From: Strigamia acuminata
Taxonomy: Eukaryota; Arthropoda; Chilopoda; Geophilomorpha; Linotaeniidae
Length of the DNA: 64,000 bases
Reading direction: 5' to 3'
NCBI GenBank assembly: GCA_949358305.1
Contig: OX442318.1
Coordinates: 7,178,501 to 7,242,500, forward strand
Shown: positions 3,991-61,837 of the stretch, in pieces
Position numbering within the stretch: position 1 is the first letter of the stretch
Layout of the letters: the number at the start of each line of letters is the position of its first letter
Made by a program: the position numbers and the translations under genes
The notes under the pieces: generated by a model
What the model was told of the DNA's origin: nothing
Seen by the model: the letters and a program-made list of their open reading frames with translations, nothing else
Databases searched by the model: none

Positions 3991-4404
3991 GTTGATACTA
4001 GACTTTGACCGATATCAATATTTTGGAGTATCGCCGATTCCGATAATCGGCAACCGAATATCGGCCGATACCGATACCTGCGCCGATATTAAAATTAAAA
4101 TGTCCAACCCCCCCCCCCCATCCCCCAAAATAAAAAAAATTAAATTAACATTGCGTTTATTAATTTATTTTATGTTTTAGAAACGTTTTTGAAGCAGTAT
4201 CGTTTTAGACTAAAACGATACGCAGTATACATACACTGTATACTGCTTAAAAAGTGTTTCTAAAACATAACGTTTTAGTCTAAAAGATACGTTTTAGAAA
4301 TGTGGCAATATCGGTATCGGCCACGCAAAAAAATATCGGATCCGATATCGGTGAATACCGAAATATCGGCAGATAGCCGATACCGGTCAAAGTCTAGTTG
4401 ATAC
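3991..4404. mobile_element. hAT-type MITE with 8-bp target duplication
   Basis: The element (3999-4396) has inverted ends TAGACTTTGACCGATATC and GATACCGGTCAAAGTCTA. It is flanked on both sides by the identical 8-mer GTTGATAC (3991-3998 and 4397-4404). An 8-bp duplication is the hallmark of the hAT and P superfamilies, and the multiple GATATCGGCCGAT motifs near both ends suit hAT. The centre has a second palindrome built from GTTTTAGACTAAAAC. A short relic of the same family lies at 24156-24219. Confidence 0.88.
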
Positions 4405-4674
4405 CGATATTTCTAATTTATCTAAACACATGGCCAATTTGATTCAAAGTTTATACCGTGCGCTTCTAAAATTGTGTCTTATCGACGTTAACAAAATGAG
4501 CAGATCTGCACGTTTGAAATTTGAAAAAAATGCAAACTATGCATTATTTTTAAAATTACATTAAAAATCTACCCGAGAATTTAAAAAAAAATAACATTGT
4601 CTATTTCAGCAAAAATAAATTGTTTGTATTAAAATAAATTAATTTGACATCTGGTGTCGGATAATTATAGTGTT

Positions 4675-6380: not shown

Positions 6381-6592
6381 TGCGCAGACGATTTTCTAAT
6401 TCCAGTTGTTATTTAGCAGTATTAAGCCTAATAACGCTAAAATAAAGTAAATAAACTCATTATTAAAAGTAATTTACAGGTAGTACCAACATTTTTTTTA
6501 TTTACCTTATTATTAGCAGTATTAGGCCTAATATTAGGCTTAATACTGCTAAATAACATCTGGAATTAGAAAATCGTCTGCACAGCATGGGA
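6381..6592. repeat. Fold-back repeat (212 bp)
   Basis: The arms TGCGCAGACGATTTTCTAAT and ATTAGAAAATCGTCTGCACA are inverted, with TATTTAGCAGTATTA repeated in inverse order inside. Single-arm copies occur at 41980-42060, and related ends near 38330, 54424 and 55560. Confidence 0.75.
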
Positions 6593-7262
6593 TGTGCATT
6601 GTGCAGTACGAATTTATTATCAAAATACCGGGCGCAAACTGTAGGTTCGTACTCTGTTTTCCGCCCCGCCTAGCACATTCGAAGACTTAGATCTATGTCA
6701 AACTAACCAAACACCCATTCATGCAATTTTTAAAACCAAATCCATCTTGATGGAATAAAAGCAGCACTTCTTTTCCGTTGTTGTGCTCTTATCTTTTTTT
6801 TTTCTTTACTGCATTAGATCTTGGCAGCAATCCGTATTTATCATTGAAAAAGGGATTTCTGATTTAGGCTTCTTTCCGCTTAAATAAAAGAAAACAAACA
6901 ACAAACTGAGACTCCAAAAAAAGTAAAAAAAAAAACAAACACTCCACATTATTTTTTTTCTTCCAATTCTCCAACTCTAGACCGGGAAAATGTGATTAAA
7001 TTGGCCACACTCTGTACTCCAAACAATATTTATATACATTAACCCAACACGCCTTTACCTCTCTCCACTTTTCTATCATAAATTACCCATAAGAAGTTTC
7101 TCCCTTCCTGCAACTTCACACTTTCATTTATGTCCACATGTAATTTCTTCCACAAAATTGCAGCGGCCAAAAGAGATAAGAAAGCATTGGATTCCAGCCA
7201 ATCTCGCTTTAATCTTTCTCGGCAACAACAGTATTAAAAAAAATAAAAAATAATAAAAATAA
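6593..7262. other. No gene seen
   Basis: AT-rich and low-complexity in places (6,795-6,960). No supported feature. Confidence 0.35.
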
Positions 7263-7945
7263 TACAGCCGAACCTCTTTATAACGAACCGCGATATAACG
7301 AATTTCTCGTTGTAATGAATAGTTAAAAAATAGAGAGATTGCGGGATGCATTTTTCCCTTATTTTGTGCCACGTTACACTATTTTAGTGCCATATCGTAA
7401 GGGAAAAATCTTTAGTGTATCGTTTTCAACACTAAATTAAAATATAGCGCAGCCAATCACAATTGAGAACACTATATTGTTAGCTCCGCCCATTGCAAAT
7501 GGCGATTTTGTTGTTGTCCCGATCAAACACATCAGTCATAGGTATGTACATTGAATGATAAGTGAGGCCCAAAATTAAATTTTAGGCCCAAAACCATACT
7601 TTATAGGCGTAATAATGGGATTTTATGCAGAAATTTGCACATTTACGCCCCCAAATTGAAGTTTTAGGCCCAAAATTACTAACTGTCAGAAGTTGGCTGA
7701 AATAGTGTAGTGATAAGGGGAAAGTGCAGCCCGCAAAAACTTAATTTATCATTTTTCCCTTACACTATTTTTATACCGTATAGTCTTTAACTGTAAGGGA
7801 AAAATGCATCCCGCAAACTCTCTAATGGCTTGTTGGCCGTAGAATATCACGTTAAAAAATTTTGATATAACGAACTTTAGTTATAACAAACCGATTTCTC
7901 GGGTCCCTTGCGATTCGTTATAACGAGGCTCGTCTGTGGTTTTGG
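7263..7945. mobile_element. pogo-like MITE, interrupted copy
   Basis: The ends ACAGCCGAACCTCTTTATAA and CGTTATAACGAGGCTCGTCTG are an inverted pair. The interior has many ATAACGAA motifs and a TTGGCCGTA block shared with the copies at 14866-15035, 15033-15631 and 38155-38328. CAGT(C)RAAC-TCTTTATAACGAA ends are typical of Tc1/mariner-pogo (Tigger-type) non-autonomous elements. It is split at 7331 by another MITE. Confidence 0.8.
7331..7824. mobile_element. GAGAGTTTGCGGG MITE, copy 1, nested
   Basis: The ends TAGAGAGATTGCGGGATGCA and TGCATCCCGCAAACTCTCTA form inverted repeats that continue into TTTTTCCCTTA. The 494-bp interior has mirrored TTAGGCCCAAAAT blocks and a CCGCCCATTGCAAATGGCG segment. 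It sits inside the pogo-like MITE at 7263-7945. Sister copies are at 15084-15497 and 47186-47671. TA (or TTA) flanks suggest TA-type targeting, but the exact duplication length cannot be settled by eye. Confidence 0.9.
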
Positions 7946-22589: not shown

Positions 22590-23046
22590 GAGGAATTTTT
22601 AGTGTAAAAAGTAAGGGAAAATAGTGTACATTGCGATTTTTAGTGTAAAAAGTAAGGGAAAATAGTGTACATTGCGATTTTTAGTGTAAAAAGTAAGGGA
22701 AAATAGTGTACATTGCGATTTTTAGTGTAAAAAGTAAGGGAAAATAGTGTACATTGCGATTTTTAGTGTAAAAAGTAAGGGAAAATAGTGTACATTGCGA
22801 TTTTTAGTGTAAAAAGTAAGGGAAAATAGTGTACATTGCGATTTTTAGTGTAAAAAGTAAGGGAAAATAGTGTACATTGCGATTTTTAGTGTAAAAAGTA
22901 AGGGAAAATAGTGTACATTGCGATTTTTAGTGTAAAAAGTAAGGGAAAATAGTGTACATTGCGATTTTTAGTGTAAAAAGTAAGGGAAAATAGTGTACAT
23001 TGCGATTTTTAGTGTAAAAAGTAAGGGAAAATAGTGTACATTGCGG
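22590..23046. repeat. 41-bp minisatellite, about 11 identical units
   Basis: Each unit contains AGTGTAAAAAGTAAGGGAAA followed by ATAGTGTACATTGCGATTTT. Apart from the first and last partial units I see no substitutions across more than ten copies, which points to very recent expansion or homogenisation. The TAAGGGAAAAATAGTGTA-like motif also occurs near the ends of the GAGAGTTTGCGGG MITEs. Confidence 0.96.
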
Positions 23047-48849: not shown

Positions 48850-49378
48850 GTAAATATTATCCAAAACTTGTTCAAACACCATTAAATTTTTAATTTTTTA
48901 TCGTAATTTGTGAAAAAATCGAGATAAATCGTTAAAAATATTGTATTTTCGCACAAAATCATTACTTATCGTTAGAAAATACATTAATTTGTCACAAAAT
49001 TGCAATAAATAGTTAGAATTTATCGTAATTTTTCACAACATATATCGTAATTTGTCAAAATCACATTATTTATCGTTAGAACATACCGTAATTTGTCAAA
49101 CAATTGCGATAAATTGTTGACGAATATTGTAATTTGTCAAAATTATCATATATCGTCGAGAAATCGTAATTTCAAACAAAATCGAAGTAAATTGTGATAA
49201 AATGTTGTAATTTCACACAAAATCGCAGTAAATTGTGATAAAATGTTGTAATTTTACAGAAAATCGCAGTAATTTTTGATAAAATGTTGTAATTTCACTC
49301 AAAATCGAAGTAAATTGTGATAAAATGTTGTTATTTCTTTGCATTACATTTTTTAATTACATTTTTAAAATTAAATAG

Positions 49379-49614
49379 AAGTAAACGATGGTTAATAAAC
49401 ACGCGCCGCTCAGATCTGGATGGGGAAACGACAGATTATTTATATAAAAATATATGCTTGTGCAGCCAACATTTCACTGACAGTATGTTCATGAATGTCA
49501 CGGAACGAAATTCTCTAGTATGGAATGCTATACCAACAGAATTTAGTGTTCCAAACAAGCCAAAAGCTCTTGAAAATAAAAGGAAAACCAAATCTTCACT
49601 TGGTTTGAGAACAG
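49379..49614 (+). CDS. P-like/THAP9-like transposase, exon 2
   Basis: The acceptor is AAATAG (49377-49378) and the donor is ACAG|GTATAT at 49615. It completes the THAP domain: W39 in SKRW, then C63 and H66 in ICLCSQHF, giving a C9-C14-C63-H66 C2CH zinc site, and closes with IPTEFSVP, the usual AVPTxF-like end of the domain. The THAP domain binds subterminal DNA of the transposon in P element. The remainder is a basic linker (NKRKTKSS). Confidence 0.93.
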
Positions 49615-49678
49615 GTATATCTTTTGGTTAAATAATTTTGGTTAAATAATAATTCCTTTAAATTTATAAAAACTACAG

Positions 49679-49777
49679 CTGATAATGAAAATCAAAGTCA
49701 AACCCAAAAAAGAAAAAGAATTGTCAAAACTGACCCAATCAAGAAATTTAAAGAAAACAAGATTCCTTTCATCAACA
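49679..49777 (+). CDS. P-like/THAP9-like transposase, exon 3
   Basis: A 99-bp exon between acceptor AACTACAG (AG at 49677-49678) and donor AACA|GTAATT (at 49778). The phases match both neighbours. It encodes residues 114-146, a lysine-rich linker (QKRKRIVKTDPIKKFKEN). It is the least certain exon, since skipping it would shift the frame into exon 4, but only its inclusion keeps the gene open. Confidence 0.8.
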
Positions 49778-49835
49778 GTAATTATTTAAACAAACAATCT
49801 GACATTTGCTTAATTAAATATAATGATTTCTCCAG

Positions 49836-52105
49836 GCCCTCCATTGGAAAGTAGTAATTATTCTGACATCACTGCAAACAATTCCATTGATTGTTATGTC
49901 AGTGATGACAGTGATGACACTACGAATCAGACGAAATCAGCCGCAACAGAAGTTCAAAGTTGCAAACAATACACGCCAAGAAAAAAGAAACTGCAGATGC
50001 AAATAACCAATTTACGCCGAAAACTTAAACGCTCTGAAGATTCTAAACAAAGGCTGTCATCTACAACAAAACCAGTGTCAACAAATGATGCCTTAAAAGT
50101 TCTTGAAAACAAGCTAACTCCTCTGCAGTATGAACTTTTAAGAGCGCAAGTCAAAACAAGCAATGAAACATCAACATCCAGAAAACATTGGTGCCCAATA
50201 ATGAAAAGTTTTTCTTTAGGTTTAAATTATAAGGGTGCAGGTGCTTACAGGTATGTAAAAAATTATATTCGCTTGCCATCTAAAAGAAGTCTTCATAACT
50301 TTTTACCTCAACAAATCCTAGATTGTGGATTGTGTGAGATAGTAATAAACTCTTTGCAAAAACCTAAACCAAACGAATCTATACTCTGCTCACTGTGTAT
50401 AGATGAAATGAGTTTAAAAGAACATTTATTCTACTGCAGTAAGAGAGATATAGTAGTAGGCTTTGAGGATAATGGTATTGTAAATGGGCACAAAAAAGCT
50501 AACTCAGCATTAGTTGTAATGTGCCAAGGTTTATTAAAGAAATTTAAGCAGCCTGTTGCATATTCTCTATGCAATGCATGTACTAAAACAGAGAATGTTA
50601 TAGCAATAATTAATAAGTGTGTCCATTCTCTTGACAAGGTTGGGTATTGTGTGGTGGCAGTGATTACGGATCAAGGCCCTAATTTCTTATCAATGGCTAA
50701 TGAATTAGGAGTAACAACAGAAAAACCATATTTCTTTATTAATTCAAAAAAAATATTTTATATGTACGACCCCCCCCATCTCTTGAAAAGTATTAGAAAT
50801 AATTTTATGAAATATACAGTGCATTTTGAGGGAAAGACTGCTTCATGGGATATAATTAAATCTGTGTATTTGGAGGACAAAAAAAGAAATTTTCGCCTTA
50901 TGCCTCGAGTCACTGAAAAACACATCAATGTAACAAATTTTGGAAAAATGAAAGTTAAACTGGCTAGTCAAATTTTTAGTCACTCTGTTGCTGCAGCAAT
51001 TGAAACGGAAGTGGCTAAAGGTTTTTTACCTGCTAAGGCATTAGAAACAGCTGATTTTGTTGGGAGAATGGACAAATTGTTTGATTGCTTTAACAGCAGT
51101 AACATAAGTTCAAATAAACGTTTCAGACGAGCTATTGGTGGGAAAAATGGGCAAATTGAGGATTTTATAAAACGGGGATTGTTATGGATGGGTTCTCTTC
51201 AGTTCAGAGACACAAAAACAAATAAAAATGCAAAAAGTATAAAATGTGTACGTGGATGGCTCACAACAATGAATGCTTTGCTTCAGTTAAAAAAGTATTT
51301 AGGAGAAGAACCAAACAATGTTACTTTTTTGTTTACACGAAGGCTTAACCAAGATTCTCTTGAAAATTTTTTCGGCATAATTCGAAGTAAGGGGGGATTT
51401 AATGACAGACCTACACCCATACAATTTCAACGTAGCTTTCGTCAAGTTTGTATGAACAACATGTTACAACCTGGTATTAATGGAAATTGTCTTGATTTTT
51501 GTGAGGATTTAGCCACAGATTTAACTACATTAAACAATGTTGACTCGTCTTTGGATTCAGGAAATAAAATTCACTTGCTTTCAATGACATCAAATATGAA
51601 CACATCTGAATATATTTTTCCGGAATTAAAAGTTGAGTCGCCATTTCTTAATGAAAAGGAATCTTTCTTTTATTTTAGTGGATATTGCTTGAAAAAAATT
51701 TTATTAGAACATGAGTGTAATCAATGTCAAATTGAGCTAAATGGGACTAGGGAATTGGACATGCCAGAAAAGTTATTCTGTTTTTTTAAGGCATATGATA
51801 ATAGTGTTGATACATTTGCTAATTTAAAAATTCCTTCTAATTTATTTGTAGAATTTTTAATGGAATGGGAAAAAATTTTTTCGCTGTTGTTTGGTTTGCA
51901 TGGCAACAAACCAAATATTAAAAAGTGTATAACTTATAAACTTAAAGAAGTCCCTTGTACATTCAGTTGCACTGATTTTCCAATATTTAAATTATGTGAA
52001 TATTTTTTGAAAGTGAGAATTTACTACACCATCAAATTTCATAATAATAGCCATAATATTAAAAAACCAACTAATTCAAAATTAAGCAAATTAATTCATG
52101 CTTAA
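49836..52105 (+). CDS. P-like/THAP9-like transposase, exon 4 (catalytic)
   Basis: The acceptor is TTTCTCCAG (AG at 49834-49835), and the exon runs to TAA at 52103-52105. It gives a protein of 902 residues, against about 751 for Drosophila P transposase and about 903 for human THAP9. Residues 195-220 form a short basic coiled coil (KKKLQMQITNLRRKLKR). The RNase H-like catalytic acids appear to be D336 (CIDEMSL), D425 (VITDQGPN) and E656 (QDSLENFFG). The spacing of 89 and 231 is close to that in P and THAP9, with the GTP-binding insertion expected between the second and third. DPPHLLK (458-464) is another family block. No stops, shifts or lost acids are visible. Confidence 0.95.
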
Positions 52106-56251: not shown

Positions 56252-56483
56252 CCTAGGCTCTATTCCCTGTTTTGCAAAAGCTAGACCAGCAACTTGTGAT
56301 ATACAGAGTACATCTCAAGATCCATAGATCTATTGGGCGGAAGCATAAGTGGTTTAGAATAAACATCTCTCGACACTTCATGTAATCGAAAAGATGTGTC
56401 TATCCGTACAAGAGAACACCAGTAGACAAATCTACATTGCGTCAATTATTTAGTCAATTGGGAGCCCAGGTAGCACAGATGAT

Positions 56484-57690
56484 CGAATCTACATAGAATC
56501 TGTATAGACCGCTCTGTGTTGAATCTGCATAGACCTGTTGATATAGATGCGATGTTAAATCTATGTCAATGTTCTATCCCAATTTAATTTAACATAGATT
56601 TAACATAGACTGCTCTATGCAGAATCAACAGAGAGCGATTGATGTTGAATCTGTGTAGACCGCTCTGTGTTGAATCTGCATAGGCCTGTTGATATAGATG
56701 CTATGTTAAATCTATGTCACAGTTCTATCCCAATTTAATTTTAACATAGATTTAACATAGACTGCTCTATGTTGAATCAACATAGACGGATTTATGTTGA
56801 ATTAACATAGAAGGCTCTGTGTTGAATCTACGTAGACCGTTAATGTCAATGCGATGCTAAATCTACGTCACTGTTCTATCCCAAAATAAATTTAACATAG
56901 ATTTAACATAGACCGCTCTATGTTGAATCAACATAGACCGATTTATGTTGAATTAACATAGAAGGCTCTGTGTTGAATCTACGTAGACCGTTAATGTCGA
57001 TGCTATGCTAAATCTATGTGATAATTCTATCCCAATTTAATTTTAACATGGATTTAACATAGACCGCTCTATGTTGAATCAACATAGACCGATTTATGTT
57101 GAATTAACATAGAAGGCTCTGTGTTGAATCTACGTAGACCGTTAATGTCGATGCTATGCTAAATCTATGTGATAATTCTATCCCAATTTAATTTTAACAT
57201 GGATTTAACATAGACCGCTCTATGCTGAATCAACATAGACCGATTTATGTTGAATTAACATAGAAGGCTCTGTGTTGAATCTACGTAGACCGTTAATGTC
57301 GATGCTATGCTAAATCTATGTAATAATTCTATCCCAATTTAATTTTAACATGGATTTAACATAGACCGCTCTATGCTGAATCAACATAGACCAATTTATG
57401 TTGAATTAACATGGACCGCTCTGTGTTGAATCGGTGTAGACTGTTAATGTCGATGCTATGCTAAATCTATGTCATAATTCTATCCCAATTTAATTTTAAC
57501 ATGGATTTAACATAGACCGCTCTATGCTGAATTAACAGAGAGCGATTGATGTTGAATCTGTGTAGACCGCTCCGTGTTGAATCTGTGTAGACCGTTAATG
57601 TCGATGCGATGTTAAATCTATGTCAACATTCTATCCCAAAATAAATTTAACATGAATTCAACACTGTGTTGAATCAATAGAGACCGACGG
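56484..57690. repeat. 151-bp tandem array, eight units
   Basis: The anchor CTATCCCAATTTAATTTTAA recurs every 151 bp exactly (anchors near 56578, 56729, 56880, 57031, 57182, 57333 and 57484, with a last one near 57635). Each unit is itself made of short direct and inverted copies of AACATAGA/TCTATGTT. Middle units are nearly identical. It forms the left subterminal part of the mosaic element. Confidence 0.93.
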
Positions 57691-57696
57691 TGACTT

Positions 57697-57750
57697 TGAG
57701 TTGATGTAATTGTTTATTCAAGAAATGCTTGTTTGAATTTGTATATTTTC
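57697..57750. repeat. Left copy of 54-bp direct repeat flanking captured DNA
   Basis: AATTGTTTATTCAAGAAATG followed by CTTGTTTGAATTTGTATATT recurs with few changes at 59262-59316. The intervening 1.5 kb carries the captured fragments, so the two copies mark the edges of an acquired segment. Between 57751 and 58039 a plus-strand exon-like stretch (NNVYKSISTTSAIVEKKFEC) is unassigned. Confidence 0.8.
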
Positions 57751-58039
57751 GAGAAATGAATCACTACAAATAAAGAAATAAAGAAATAATGTCCTACCGT
57801 CAACAATGTATACAAATCTATAAGCACGACTTCGGCGATTGTAGAGAAGAAATTTGAATGCGCTCGTGAATAAAAAATAACAATGATTTGGTAAAAAGGG
57901 CTGAAATATCAAGAGGAACGACCAAACACGATGAAATATTTATATATTACATAACGAGTTAATGTAATAACAAAAAAAAACATAAAACGATGATTTTAAA
58001 AACTTAATTTAAATTTCGGAGTAAACACAAGTCGAGGTG

Positions 58040-58640
58040 CTTGTTCATGTGATTTTCTTCAATCTTAAGCGAGCACACGGGCAGGGACTGGGATGAAGAC
58101 CGATCGAACGATTATTATGAGAATTTCTGCATTACGAAGACACAAAGAATGCGCTAAAAGTTGGACAATTCGAAGTTCCGACCGCACAAGGTGGGTTGTT
58201 GTTTGTATTAATTTTAATGCGTTATTTCGTGTTTTTATTGATTTTATTTGGGTTTTTTTCCTAGTTGCAGCAGTTTACCTCCGTTAAGGAGATTCTGCTC
58301 AAAACGAAAAGCGGGTGGCCGAAAGAAGTGAAGAGAGGAACGCCACAAGCGAAACGAGCCAAGGCGAGGACTGCAACGACGAGAAAGAGGAGAAATTGAG
58401 GAGAACGACTAGAACTCAACGAACAACCATTTCATCTAAACCAACGCACCAAAACGCGATATTTCTGCTTGTGGATCGAAACACTGTTGGTTGATAATGC
58501 GGACGAAACAACATCGTCGCACATTCCGACGTCCGAAAAGATTGAAACGAGCGTCGTTTGATGATGTTACAGCATTCGACACACACACGTGGCAAAGGTT
58601 TTGAAGATTTGCATCGGCAGTGCACACAGGTTTCAATCGT
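58040..58640 (+). pseudogene. Captured exon fragments of an unidentified gene
   Basis: The sequence has higher G+C and CpG than the host background. An exon-like stretch with one in-frame stop (…TQRMR*KLDNSKFRPHK) ends at a good donor (CACAAG|GTGGGT, 58191). After a 74-bp intron-like gap with acceptor TTTTTTCCTAG it continues LQQFTSVKEILLKTKSGW, then a lysine/arginine-rich tail. Another open stretch at 58495-58610 includes RRPKRLKRASFDDVTAFD. I recognise no family. The intron shows that genomic DNA, not mRNA, was captured. Confidence 0.45.
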
Positions 58641-58799
58641 TAAAATATTTATGATTGTAATTGTAATTCAATTTTTATACTTATTTTTATTTTTTTTCAA
58701 ATATTTTTTTTGATTTTGCTAGGATTTTTGCAGTTAGGCCTAAATTTTAGCAACGCTTGATTAAAAATTAGGCCTAACTGCAAAAACTGACTCGTACGT

Positions 58800-59248
58800 C
58801 AAATACACATTCATGTCGAATCCGAATCACCACGAAAACGAATTTAAATCCGAAATCCAGCTTCGAAAGCTTCAACTTAAACGAGTTTCATCCGTTGATC
58901 AGCGTTCTCAGCGACGGAATCGTTCTCGGAGGACGGAAAGACTTTCAAAGCGGCGAATTACAAGATTACGAAAACGGTAAAACGATAAAACAATACAACG
59001 GAACGTTTTGATTTTGATTGATTTCGATTTTCTAGGTTGTTTGGACGACGTGCGCTTCGATCGCATTACGAAGCACCTGCCGATGCCACTGGTCCGATTA
59101 TCCCGAAGTGTTCAACTTTTTGCACGTCGAGTCCGGCTGCGATCCGACGGCGTGTCTGCTGGCCAACTGACCGGACGTATACTGCAAACAACTCTTCTTA
59201 AACCACGATTGCAGGAGCAACGCGGGCTTCGTGACGGGGCTGTGCGGT
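58800..59248 (+). pseudogene. Captured cadherin-type laminin-G/EGF fragment, broken
   Basis: Exon to 58976 encodes SFNLNEFHPLISVLSDGI then VLGGRKDFQSGELQDYEN. A 59-bp intron (58977-59035, GTAAAA…TTCTAG) follows, and the split codon G|GT restores the frame into GCLDDVRFD. That is the end of a laminin-G domain as found in Fat-like, neural and flamingo cadherins. Soon after HLPMP a shift is needed to continue as WSDYPEVFNFLHVESGC, and a TGA (59168-59170) interrupts the Cys-rich, EGF-like remainder (…YCKQLFLNHDC). The segment stops abruptly where element sequence resumes (TAGATTTAACATAGACC, about 59249). It is a non-functional copy; the donor gene is not identified beyond this. Confidence 0.72.
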
Positions 59249-59261
59249 AGATTTAACATAG

Positions 59262-59316
59262 ACCGCTCTGTTGATATAATTGTTTATTCTAGAAATGCTC
59301 GTTTGAATTTGTATAT
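59262..59316. repeat. Right copy of 54-bp direct repeat flanking captured DNA
   Basis: Matches 57697-57750 (AATTGTTTATTCTAGAAATG then CTCGTTTGAATTTGTATATT) and is itself preceded by a partial 151-bp unit (ATTTAACATAGACCGCTC). Confidence 0.8.
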
Positions 59317-59537
59317 TTTTATACTTGCAATTATAATTTTGATAAATTTTACAACTGCAGTCATTTACTCATTACATTTGCACATAACAAGTTAAAATAA
59401 AAGTACAACTATAACTTAATTTATGGGTTTTATTTAAAATGAAAAGAAAATTTTATGTTTTACATTTTTACATTTCGCTGTATGACGACAAGTCAATTTC
59501 AAAACGCTGATATCAACTTCAAAACGGCTTTGAACAC

Positions 59538-59863
59538 TACCGCGGTCCTGGTACAGTACTGGGACTGGGATTTGCGGTACGTCTCGCGGACCATGAGAAA
59601 ACGCGAGAACACTCCAGAATCTCGTGTTTTCTCGCTTTCTCCACTTCCCATTTAAAAAAACCATAAAAAACCATTAAAAAAACCGACTAAAAGTGAAAAA
59701 TAATATTAAAAACCATAATAACACTTTTAATCAGTTTTTTTTTTATGATTCTTTACTTTTTTTTAAAATAGGAAGTGGAAAACGCAAGAAAACACGAGAT
59801 TCTCGTGTTTTCTCGTGTTTTCTCGGGGACCGCGAGATGTACCGCAAGTTCGGTCCGCGGTAC
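59538..59863. mobile_element. Nested fold-back MITE with GTACCGCGG ends
   Basis: TACCGCGGTCC…TTGCGGTACGTCTCGCGG and the inverse CCGCGAGATGTACCGCAA…GGTCCGCGGTA form long imperfect arms. AACACGAGATTCTCGTG is repeated on both sides, with an A/T-rich centre. It lies inside the mosaic element. Confidence 0.75.
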
Positions 59864-60240
59864 ACGAATTTTTAAAAGTACCGGCTTCCGGTTTGTGTGC
59901 TCTAAGCGACCGCGTGGTTAGGTTAATGGTTTTAATGGTTTTAATCAAACATCTTGTTGCTGGAATTAAACCATACAACCATGTAAGCCATGTGTATGGA
60001 AGGTACCGGTAGGTGTTTTGATTTTTACAGGTAGATCGATCAACGATCGATACATGCCGAAGCGATGACAAAAACGCAGTGTATAAAATTAACCTCGGAA
60101 ATCGGAAAATGATAGGAAATAAACGACCCGACTGCCCGAATAACGTAATTCGAATATAAAGTAAATAAATTTCACTTATTACGATCTTTTATGCCGACGT
60201 AAAACTAAACTAAAAATTAATACGAATTTATTTTTAACAG

Positions 60241-60445
60241 ACGAAACGAATCAATACGAACTAGCGGACAGGTCTTTCGCGATAAGGAGCGAACCCGCGA
60301 ACAGACCACAACTCAACAATTAAACAAGGTAGTTTGACTTTACATTTTTCTTAATACTGATTAACCAAACCAAAAACACTAATTTGTAGATGAAAAAACG
60401 CGCGTGGTCTACAGATCCATTTGCGAACCTACCGTAGTCGGATAT
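60241..60445 (+). pseudogene. Captured exon-like pair upstream of the RIOK1 fragment
   Basis: Two short segments are bounded by canonical splice sites. The first, 60241-60328, follows TTTTTAACAG and precedes GTAGTTTG. The second, 60390-60445, follows AATTTGTAG and precedes GTGAGTTA. The gap between them is 61 bp and the next gap is 199 bp. Possible translations (RNESIRTSGQVFRDKERTRE; EKTRVVYRSICEPTVVGY) are not recognised. They may be earlier exons of the same captured RIOK1 gene or of another gene. Confidence 0.4.
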
Positions 60446-60644
60446 GTGAGTTACACGTTAAAATTGATTATTTTTAGGGAAAGTTTTAATTTTTTGGGGG
60501 TTTTTATTGAATTTTTTGGGTTTATATTGAACATTTTTGGTTTACATTGAATTTTTTCATTTAAAATTGAATTTCTGAAATTAAATAAAACCTCTTGCTT
60601 AAAACGAATAAACAAAAATGACAATTTACTCTCATTCCTTTTAG

Positions 60645-61009
60645 TTCAATTCGACGTCCCCGATTTATCCAGTTCCACAACAAACAAACTAACCGAAAAC
60701 GAGCGCCGAACCAAAGACAAATTCGACCGTGCAACAGTCTAACAGGTTCTAGACGTGCGCACTAGAATGATCGTCTTCAAAATAGTTAATTCGCAATTTG
60801 AAGAAATCAACGGCTGCGTCGGCACGGGAAAAGAAGCAAACTTTCACCACGCACTCGGCAAAAACGACGAAGAATACGCAATCAAAGTCTACAAAACCTC
60901 CATTTTGGTCTTCAACGACCGAGATCGATACGTGACCGGCGAATTTCGGCTCCGACACGATTACAACCGGAAAAACAACGGGAAAATGGTGCAAACCTGG
61001 GCCGAATAG
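60645..61009 (+). pseudogene. Captured RIO kinase 1 (RIOK1) fragment, broken
   Basis: After an acceptor (TCCTTTTAG, AG at 60643-60644) the frame reads QFDVPDLSSSTTNKLTEN…KDKFDRATV, then TAA (60740-60742). It continues [65 protein letters not shown] and VQTWAE before TAG (61007-61009). This is the start of the RIO1 atypical kinase domain, with the P-loop-like GTGKEAN and the ATP-binding lysine in [12 protein letters not shown]1 acts in 40S ribosome maturation. Two stops replace residues expected to be E and K, and the catalytic half is missing, so the fragment is non-functional. The intron before it means it came from genomic DNA. Confidence 0.88.
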
Positions 61010-61199
61010 AGATGAGAAATTTAATGAGAATGCACAACAATGGCCTCAACTCTCAAAACCGTTGTTGCTAAGAAGTCACGCGTGAAAAAACTCGTTCTTT
61101 TTGTAAAATATTGTTATTTTTTGAAAAATAAAATTTTTTAAAATTTTAATATTTTGTTTTTTTTATACAAAAAAAGTACATAGAACTATAAGTCGATTT

Positions 61200-61797
61200 T
61201 AATATCAGATCTACTTCAAATTGATGTAGAAGTCTCGATCGAATCTACGTCGATTTGAAGTAGAATCGATCTACAGCTCTATGTCGATGCTATGTTAAAA
61301 TCGCGACCGGGCGACGCTAATTCCATGTCAATGCTATGTTGTTTCGGCATAGTTTCATCCTTATTCTACGTTAAATAGACGTAGAATTTGACGTTGAGTT
61401 TGACGTAGAATTCTATGCAGAGTTTGACGTAGAATTCTACATAGATTTAACATAAAATAAGGATGAAACTATGCCGAAACAGCGTAGCATTGACATGGAA
61501 TTAGCGCATTTTGGTCACGATTTTGACATTGAATCTACATAAAGCGGTAGATCGATTCTATGTTGATCGACATAGAACTCTACGTAGAATTCGACGTCGA
61601 TTTGACGTTGTATTGATGTAGCATCGATCTACAGCTCTATGTAGATGCTATGTCAAAATCGTGACAGAAATGCGCTTATTCCATGTCAATGCTATGTAGT
61701 TTCGGCATAGTTTCTACCTTATTCTATGTTAAATCTATGTACCAAGATAGACGGTTTGCATAGATTCTATCTAGATTTAACATAGTTTTGTTACTTG
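61200..61797. repeat. Palindromic right subterminal block of the mosaic element
   Basis: CCATGTCAATGCTATGTTGT then TTCGGCATAGTTTCATCCTT at about 61322-61363 is inverted at about 61455-61500 (AAGGATGAAACTATGCCGAA) and appears a third time, direct, at 61680-61725. ACGTAGAATTC and GATCTACAGCTCTATGTCGA motifs also recur. The last 50 bp repeat the CATAGATTTAACATAG theme of the left array. Confidence 0.85.
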
Positions 61798-61837
61798 GGA
61801 GGAAGTTATTTGTAATGTTGTCATATCTTTAAGACTA

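Follow-up and report, generated by a model that had tools for sequence, protein, structure and literature searches.

Gene capture by DNA transposons has been viewed chiefly as a plant habit, exemplified by the Pack-MULE and Pack-CACTA elements. In the animal survey of Tan et al. (2021), 370 Pack-TIRs, that is, terminal inverted repeat (TIR) elements carrying captured host DNA, were reported from 100 genomes. In the parts of that paper drawn on here, 323 of them are hAT or Tc1/mariner elements, the multicopy cases are four plus the Ssk-FB4 family, the median capture is 224 bp and multicopy spread is attributed to a process termed FoSTeST; most of these animal cases are single-copy, with short captures (PMC8277862). 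Here we describe a 5,335-bp element from the centipede Strigamia acuminata, found in a 64,000-nucleotide stretch of assembly GCA_949358305.1 (the window; contig OX442318.1, here C6:7178501-7242500). The element is very probably a non-autonomous, multicopy, gene-capturing transposon that belongs to the CCC-ended TRC branch of CACTA/EnSpm and amounts to a Pack-CACTA in an animal. Its family has paired ends and 2-bp target duplications, has captured host sequence at the DNA level from several donors, has exchanged sequence between copies and has moved recently.

For animal TRC elements of the CACTA superfamily, DeMarco et al. suggest a CCC start. The portions of their paper used here record 2-bp direct repeats adjoining 7 of 14 copies of SmTRC1, and also adjoining elements of Tribolium and Aedes, and give the Tribolium TRC end as CCCTAGTAGCACCGAATATTTGTAAAA (PMC1636069). 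A Hydra family was assigned, according to the extract consulted, by the same two marks, CCC and a 2-bp duplication (PMC4298943).

The centipede element lies on the plus strand at 56465..61799 of the window, its bounds being set by paired ends and by target duplications in genome copies, and flank comparison places an AG duplication on either side (56463..56464 and 61800..61801). The left terminal repeat, CCCAGGTAGCACAGA, occupies 56465..56479, and the right one, read on the minus strand as CCCAAGTAACAAAAC, occupies 61785..61799, where the plus-strand letters closing the element are ...GTTACTTGGG. Both termini start with CCC, and 10 of their first 15 bases are equal. Next to the left end, a repeat search found a subterminal tandem array on the plus strand (56504..57663) of 7.7 copies of a 151-bp unit with an internal 25-bp motif. 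Next to the right end, self-comparison revealed a subterminal block (61226..61741, plus strand) made up of a palindrome (61261-61560, 81% complementary) and a 158-bp direct pair (61226-61383 and 61584-61741). A preliminary description, made from the letters of the window, had proposed one 5.3-kb unit with matching CCC-type ends, a 151-bp subterminal array on one side and a palindromic block on the other. All of this holds, with bounds that move by 2 bp from the 56463..61797 it gave.

To see how the ends behave elsewhere, we searched the genome (237.5 Mb, 157 contigs) with the left-end 24-mer and the right-end 25-mer at up to three mismatches, using the reversed sequences as a control; the counts from genome searches are lower bounds. 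The left end gave 31 matches and the right end 39, against none for either control. Exact matches numbered 22 for the first 24 bases and 31 for the last 25. The 31 left-end matches comprise 25 from the element's own family and six from a related short family. For 20 of the 25, an inverted right end stands 5.0-20.2 kb away; five have no partner, one of these lying on C98 about 5.6 kb from the contig end, and 19 of the 39 right-end matches are likewise unpartnered. The two ends therefore do occur as a pair across the genome. Sixteen of the 20 paired copies were read base by base at both ends. Matching 2-bp target duplications flank 15 of them and 3-bp duplications none; the chance of a 2-bp match is 0.073 per copy, or about 1e-16 for at least 15 of 16. 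The matching dinucleotides are AT (five copies), AG, CT and TA (two each), and AA, GT, TG and GG (one each). Copies L017 and L019, on different contigs, differ at one base in 5,555, which indicates that the family moved recently. As to the related short family (CCCCAGTAGCAC..., six places by pattern), the two members read, L044 (from 100) and L045 (90-197), are very short copies resembling miniature inverted-repeat transposable elements, with ends CCCCAGTAGCACAGATGATCG that come near the element's left end.

These data bear on several other readings of the locus. A nest of independent insertions, a satellite or a segmental duplication could mimic a single element, and the patchy interior, the nested frames resembling long terminal repeat (LTR) retrotransposons in several copies and the unpartnered right ends could be explained in that way. 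Such a reading is nevertheless very improbable, given that units with the same ends and different flanks recur 20 times, that nearly all copies checked carry duplications, and that two 5,555-bp copies one base apart sit at different sites. Captures of several genes with their introns, and mosaics within a family, are typical of Helitrons and Helentrons, in which genes would be captured by rolling-circle transposition. Helitrons make no target duplication, insert between A and T and have a CTRR end with a hairpin. Against membership of that group stand the 2-bp duplications in 15 of 16 copies, the paired inverted CCC ends, and the variety of dinucleotides, which leaves no single fixed A/T site; we therefore rejected it, and regard a rolling-circle origin as hardly credible. 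MULEs, Pack-MULEs included, make target duplications of 8-11 bp, and no duplication match longer than 2 bp occurs in the 16 copies; Tc1/mariner elements duplicate TA, which is present in just two of the 16. Both were rejected.

The ends point instead to the TRC branch of CACTA/EnSpm. When scored for terminal likeness against the Tribolium end, the one described TRC end compared, the element's left end agrees at 12 of 15 bases (shuffle P 0.0009 with CCC held fixed). Together with the CCC termini and the 2-bp duplications, this places the element, as judged by its ends and with fair confidence, in the CCC-ended, 2-bp-duplication TRC branch. Subterminal repeat arrays also fit CACTA elements. The superfamily, which the preliminary description had left unresolved, can in this way be narrowed, from the ends, to the TRC group. 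Gene capture of this kind might also be the work of an element from a different cut-and-paste superfamily that makes 2-bp duplications, such as ISL2EU or one not yet described: ISL2EU makes 2-bp duplications too, so these are not unique to TRC elements, and a cognate transposase was not found in our scans. The combination of CCC with a 2-bp duplication is the signature of TRC, however, and the agreement with Tribolium and the arrays argue in the same direction, so we consider a different superfamily quite unlikely.

Several observations weigh against the TRC assignment. The right end agrees with Tribolium at 9 of 15 bases (P 0.08), which is non-significant, and the match between the element's own two ends, 10 of 15, is short (shuffle P 0.039). 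Copy L017 has no matching duplication (AT/TA; one of 16). The rule of CCC plus 2 bp is drawn from few published families and, in the parts of the SmTRC1 description used here, the duplication is present in only 7 of 14 copies. A transposase gene bearing the element's termini was not found: convincing CCC ends were absent from the flanks read around L032, L033 and L038-L041, six fetched loci near Pfam Transposase_21 places. The end scans themselves were sensitive to stringency, the stricter one missing the window's own element and the looser one recovering it. The sole Transposase_21 element with readable ends, C8:11414668-11424667, has CACTGG ends and a TTA duplication.

Transposase_21 was detected at eight places in the genome, none of which falls inside a paired copy, and no transposase was found in the element, which the preliminary description had already called transposase-less. 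The six fetched loci have long open frames; for want of convincing CCC ends in the flanks read, L032/L033, L038/L039 and L040/L041 were rejected as partners. The C8 stretch (L040, L042, L043) is a 10-kb EnSpm with several transposase frames without stops, and C63 carries a copy of it (L041) with 99.7% identity across 7.65 kb. In the joined C8 sequence, a few CCC/GGG pairs are flanked by matching dinucleotides, which we took as chance; the CACTGG ends with the TTA duplication define a separate 10-kb EnSpm. The long family copies (L011/12, L016, L021/22, L025-27 and L028) were considered as an autonomous form and rejected, having LTR-retrotransposon-like frames and no Transposase_21 place inside. 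By eye, among the frames listed, long open frames of this kind lie inside or beside L011/L012, L016, L021, L025/L026 and L028. Four unpaired right ends were viewed as a possible transposase-bearing branch: three of them (L035-L037) appear to be right-end fragments left by truncation, while the fourth, L034, is an end of the type found in subfamily E (see below) with a retroelement-like frame upstream.

The interior of the element is made of pieces of host genes. The captured RIOK1 fragment (60457..61083, plus strand; element 3993-4619) comprises part of an intron, a 3' splice site with its AG at 60643-60644, and an exon. Its donor is at C3:14001521-14001989 plus the upstream intron (L029), with 87% DNA identity. 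The donor exon is recognised as RIO1 by Pfam (1.9e-33) and matches solved RIO1 kinases at 1.2e-64; the frame carried by the element itself remains recognisable as RIO1 (2.2e-10). In the element, 21 bp have been deleted between two CCGAACC repeats, and a frameshift leads to a TAG stop at 61007. A second fragment, of laminin-G/EGF type (58781..59237, plus strand), derives from C8:2776743-2777463 (L030) with 87-93% DNA identity; within the fragment, about 250 bp of the donor are skipped. Because LamG, EGF_CA and a cadherin cytoplasmic motif (CADH_Y) lie within 2.8 kb there, we interpret the donor as a neural-cadherin-like gene. A GT...AG stretch present in both donor and element (58977..59035, plus strand) is, on our reading of the donor frames, a retained intron. 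The preliminary description had named laminin-G/EGF and RIOK1 fragments and spoken of broken, intron-containing copies of unrelated genes; the host loci, the retained cadherin intron, the RIOK1 intron/exon boundary and the frameshift bear this out. Retention of the intron and of the boundary marks the captures as copies made at the DNA level. With the RIOK1 and cadherin frames broken, the element most likely propagates for itself and not for the proteins encoded.

A third captured piece (58121..58345, plus strand) is 92% like C6:2706628-2706808 and continues at C6:2707012, the jump falling at a shared 8-bp GGAGATTC. Since several genome places are similar (weaker matches of 82-84% on C9, C1 and C3), its donor is less certain, a point that also counts against our reading of the element. 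SRSF1 was tried as the donor on a weak hint, a PDB match at E 0.008 with the frame of that region in the subfamily E copy, and was rejected: there was no match at 1e-3 and no Pfam family, and L031, the C6 locus most like this piece, is frameshifted. At about position 846, L031 has one A more than the element in a short A run; the locus may be a pseudogene, or the extra base may be due to later mutation or to faulty assembly.

Module maps of 12 copies shorter than 7 kb (four longer copies were excluded) resolve five subfamilies, A-E, with different module sets. As the preliminary description had suggested checking, other copies do carry different captured genes. Subfamily A (the window copy, L009 and L010) has the order array, M, third piece, cadherin, core, core2, RIOK1, right end; in L009 and L010 a different module stands where the window copy has core. 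Subfamilies B, C and D have array, core, helicase pieces, others, core2, RIOK1 and right end. Subfamily E (L046) has array, core, helicase, M, third piece, cadherin and right end, without RIOK1. The captured modules thus recur in family copies that have both ends, and do not lie in unrelated, non-repeated DNA. Length of the 151-bp array differs between copies; the right subterminal block is present in each of the 12, only partly in E. The helicase pieces of the sister subfamilies are from UAP56/DDX39, in reverse orientation: the subfamily D frame matches DDX39 at 2.3e-35 (PDB match), the frames of B and E are recognised as DEAD (1.3e-8) and Helicase_C (1.1e-10), and the search table gives the host UAP56 gene at C3:16217122 a 444-aa open frame without stops. 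Neither the cadherin frame of copy E nor the helicase frame of D was assigned to a Pfam family; both are named from DNA identity to the donor and from the PDB match. A subfamily B frame also has a weak RAD18-like zinc finger (1.2e-5).

Further places in the genome resemble pieces of subfamilies C or E at 77-92% (C1:11015154, C1:37072965, C10:5179976-5180454, C1:11744900 and C3:30076425, with 40 candidates scored per search). This brings the candidate donor loci to nine, six of them known from search tables alone. No family end was found within 234 kb of any of the nine, so the donors do not look like element copies. From this distance, and from the open frames present in three donors (RIOK1, cadherin and UAP56), the loci for which the frame argument was made, we infer that copying ran from host to element. 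The family therefore holds, inside a TIR element, host sequence with a separate parental locus, as in Pack-TIRs.

The order of modules records exchange between copies. The cadherin pieces in E are scrambled (L030 945-1022, 1278-1682, then 598-774), the third of them lying upstream in the donor. The cadherin jump is almost identical in E and A (L030 1022/1278 and 1024/1277), so this capture probably preceded their split. In the window copy, a 227-bp tract on the plus strand (59313..59539) departs from L009, L010 and L011/12 and is about 95% like the core module of subfamilies B-D, as would be left by conversion or a template switch. Module M (57751..58124, plus strand; element 1287-1660) is 91% like locus L047 over element 1515-1642, and core2 (59881..60452, plus strand) is 82% like a repeat at seven genome places and 75% like an eighth. 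M and core2 both resemble this one seven-place repeat (L047 at C6:2.24M; C5; C121; three on C9; C1), in which the two family stretches stand in the same order, about 2.6-21 kb apart. We considered the repeat as a parent element and set it aside, there being no transposase-like frame among those listed for L047. An inserted stretch of unassigned origin (58346..58704, plus strand) is partly common to subfamily E. In L020, an open frame of 243 aa on the strand opposite to the element (6573-7301) leads out of the end of a family-B copy into sequence that by eye is C2H2 zinc-finger-like; reaching the edge of the sequence read, it could possibly encode a chimeric protein.

A route by which such mosaics may form can be proposed. 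A transposase made elsewhere in the genome would bind the termini and subterminal repeats and relocate the element by a cut-and-paste mechanism. Inside it, perhaps at the array or the palindrome, gaps would arise or replication forks would stall, and a repair polymerase would switch, at short stretches of homology, to another template, either an unrelated host locus or a different member of the family. On its return to the element, host fragments would have been inserted, the re-entry sequence duplicated and modules reshuffled, and transposition would then fix and spread every new mosaic. Short homologies do occur at the joints: the 8 bp of the third-piece jump, the CCGAACC repeats at the RIOK1 deletion and two bases, CG, where the cadherin fragment jumps. 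The block formed by M, the third piece and cadherin lies between the two copies of a 50-bp duplication; the left copy (57700..57749, plus strand) is 94% identical to the right one (59270-59319), and 22 bp derived from the array (59248-59269; together 59248..59319, plus strand) stand immediately before the latter. A polymerase that had left the element and re-entered it at an earlier repeat would be expected to leave just this. The joints and the duplication are consistent with the model of Tan et al., as far as the text consulted sets it out. The case for template switching is drawn from its products, and a sample of three joints does not suffice to test it against chance, both of which tell against this part of our interpretation.

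The mosaics might instead stem mainly from nested transposition together with internal deletion or recombination among elements, template switching playing no part, or from the fusion of two close insertions that trapped the DNA between them. Copies have clearly exchanged sequence, two insertions that fuse would be able to enclose host DNA, and fusion of neighbouring insertions has been proposed as a capture route for plant Pack-CACTA in the section of a review used here (PMC13317346). Trapping by fusion should yield one contiguous piece in donor order; instead, the captured sequence jumps at sites of short homology and the cadherin pieces are out of order, and no family end was found near any candidate donor. 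Fusion is thus unlikely to be the sole route here, and we regard capture without template switching as doubtful. Template switching followed by transposition remains the route that we prefer.

Two further features of the window lie outside the element. At 49314-52105 there is a P-element-type transposase with an intact 763-aa frame containing TNP-like RNase H and GTP-binding insertion domains (Pfam), and in the upstream part of this region, at 49314-49631, a THAP-like frame was noted by eye. At 22595-23045, eleven copies of a 41-bp unit stand head to tail with a 100% match, which suggests that this array grew very recently.

Set beside the known systems, the family combines traits that have been described separately. 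SmTRC1 of Schistosoma, the TRC elements of Tribolium and Aedes and the Spongebob/EnSpm-4N1 element of Hydra likewise have CCC termini and 2-bp duplications, the Tribolium end CCCTAGTAGCACCGA sharing 12 of 15 bases with the element's left end, and SmTRC1 has internal tandem repeats like the element's array. In the portions of the published descriptions used here, SmTRC1 encodes a Transposase_21 protein, whereas none was found in the element, and captured host genes, which the element carries, go unmentioned for any of these elements.

Plant Pack-CACTA elements have CACTA ends and 3-bp duplications. Those of Arabidopsis and others are also non-autonomous CACTA-type elements with host gene fragments; they differ from the element in their plant hosts and, in the material consulted, in the fusion of adjacent insertions proposed for their origin (PMC13317346). 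Turmoil-1 of Caenorhabditis elegans is, as far as its partial description goes, another animal TIR element with pieces of two protein genes, one of them RRM, but its captures sit in its inverted repeats. Animal Pack-TIRs, Ssk-FB4 among them, share captured host DNA in a TIR element and microhomology at the joints (PMC8277862). Compared with what the accessible text says of these, the centipede family differs in its CACTA-type ends, its 20 paired copies, its several genes per element and the shuffling between subfamilies.

The preliminary description had held that gene capture on this scale by a TIR element of this architecture would be unusual in an animal. Capture as such is already known from animals, as the 370 Pack-TIRs reported in the text cited above attest; the centipede family stands out through its superfamily, through how many donor loci and copies it has, and through the shuffling between those copies. 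Among the open-access matches listed (titles and abstract starts, with subscription papers and Repbase reports outside the search), we saw no gene-capturing CACTA/TRC family in an animal. Because this multicopy family records successive captures and exchanges while the donors are still present, sequence alone can show in what order events took place, which rules the junctions follow (short homology, duplicated re-entry sequence) and what part subterminal repeats play as switch points, and the L020 frame that runs into zinc-finger-like coding sequence means that chimeric proteins can be sought in transcripts. With up to nine host loci on five contigs, recombined mosaics and very recent movement, an animal CACTA-type (TRC) family may well be a continuing exon-shuffling machine, its shuffling more elaborate than that of the animal Pack-TIRs in the accounts consulted.

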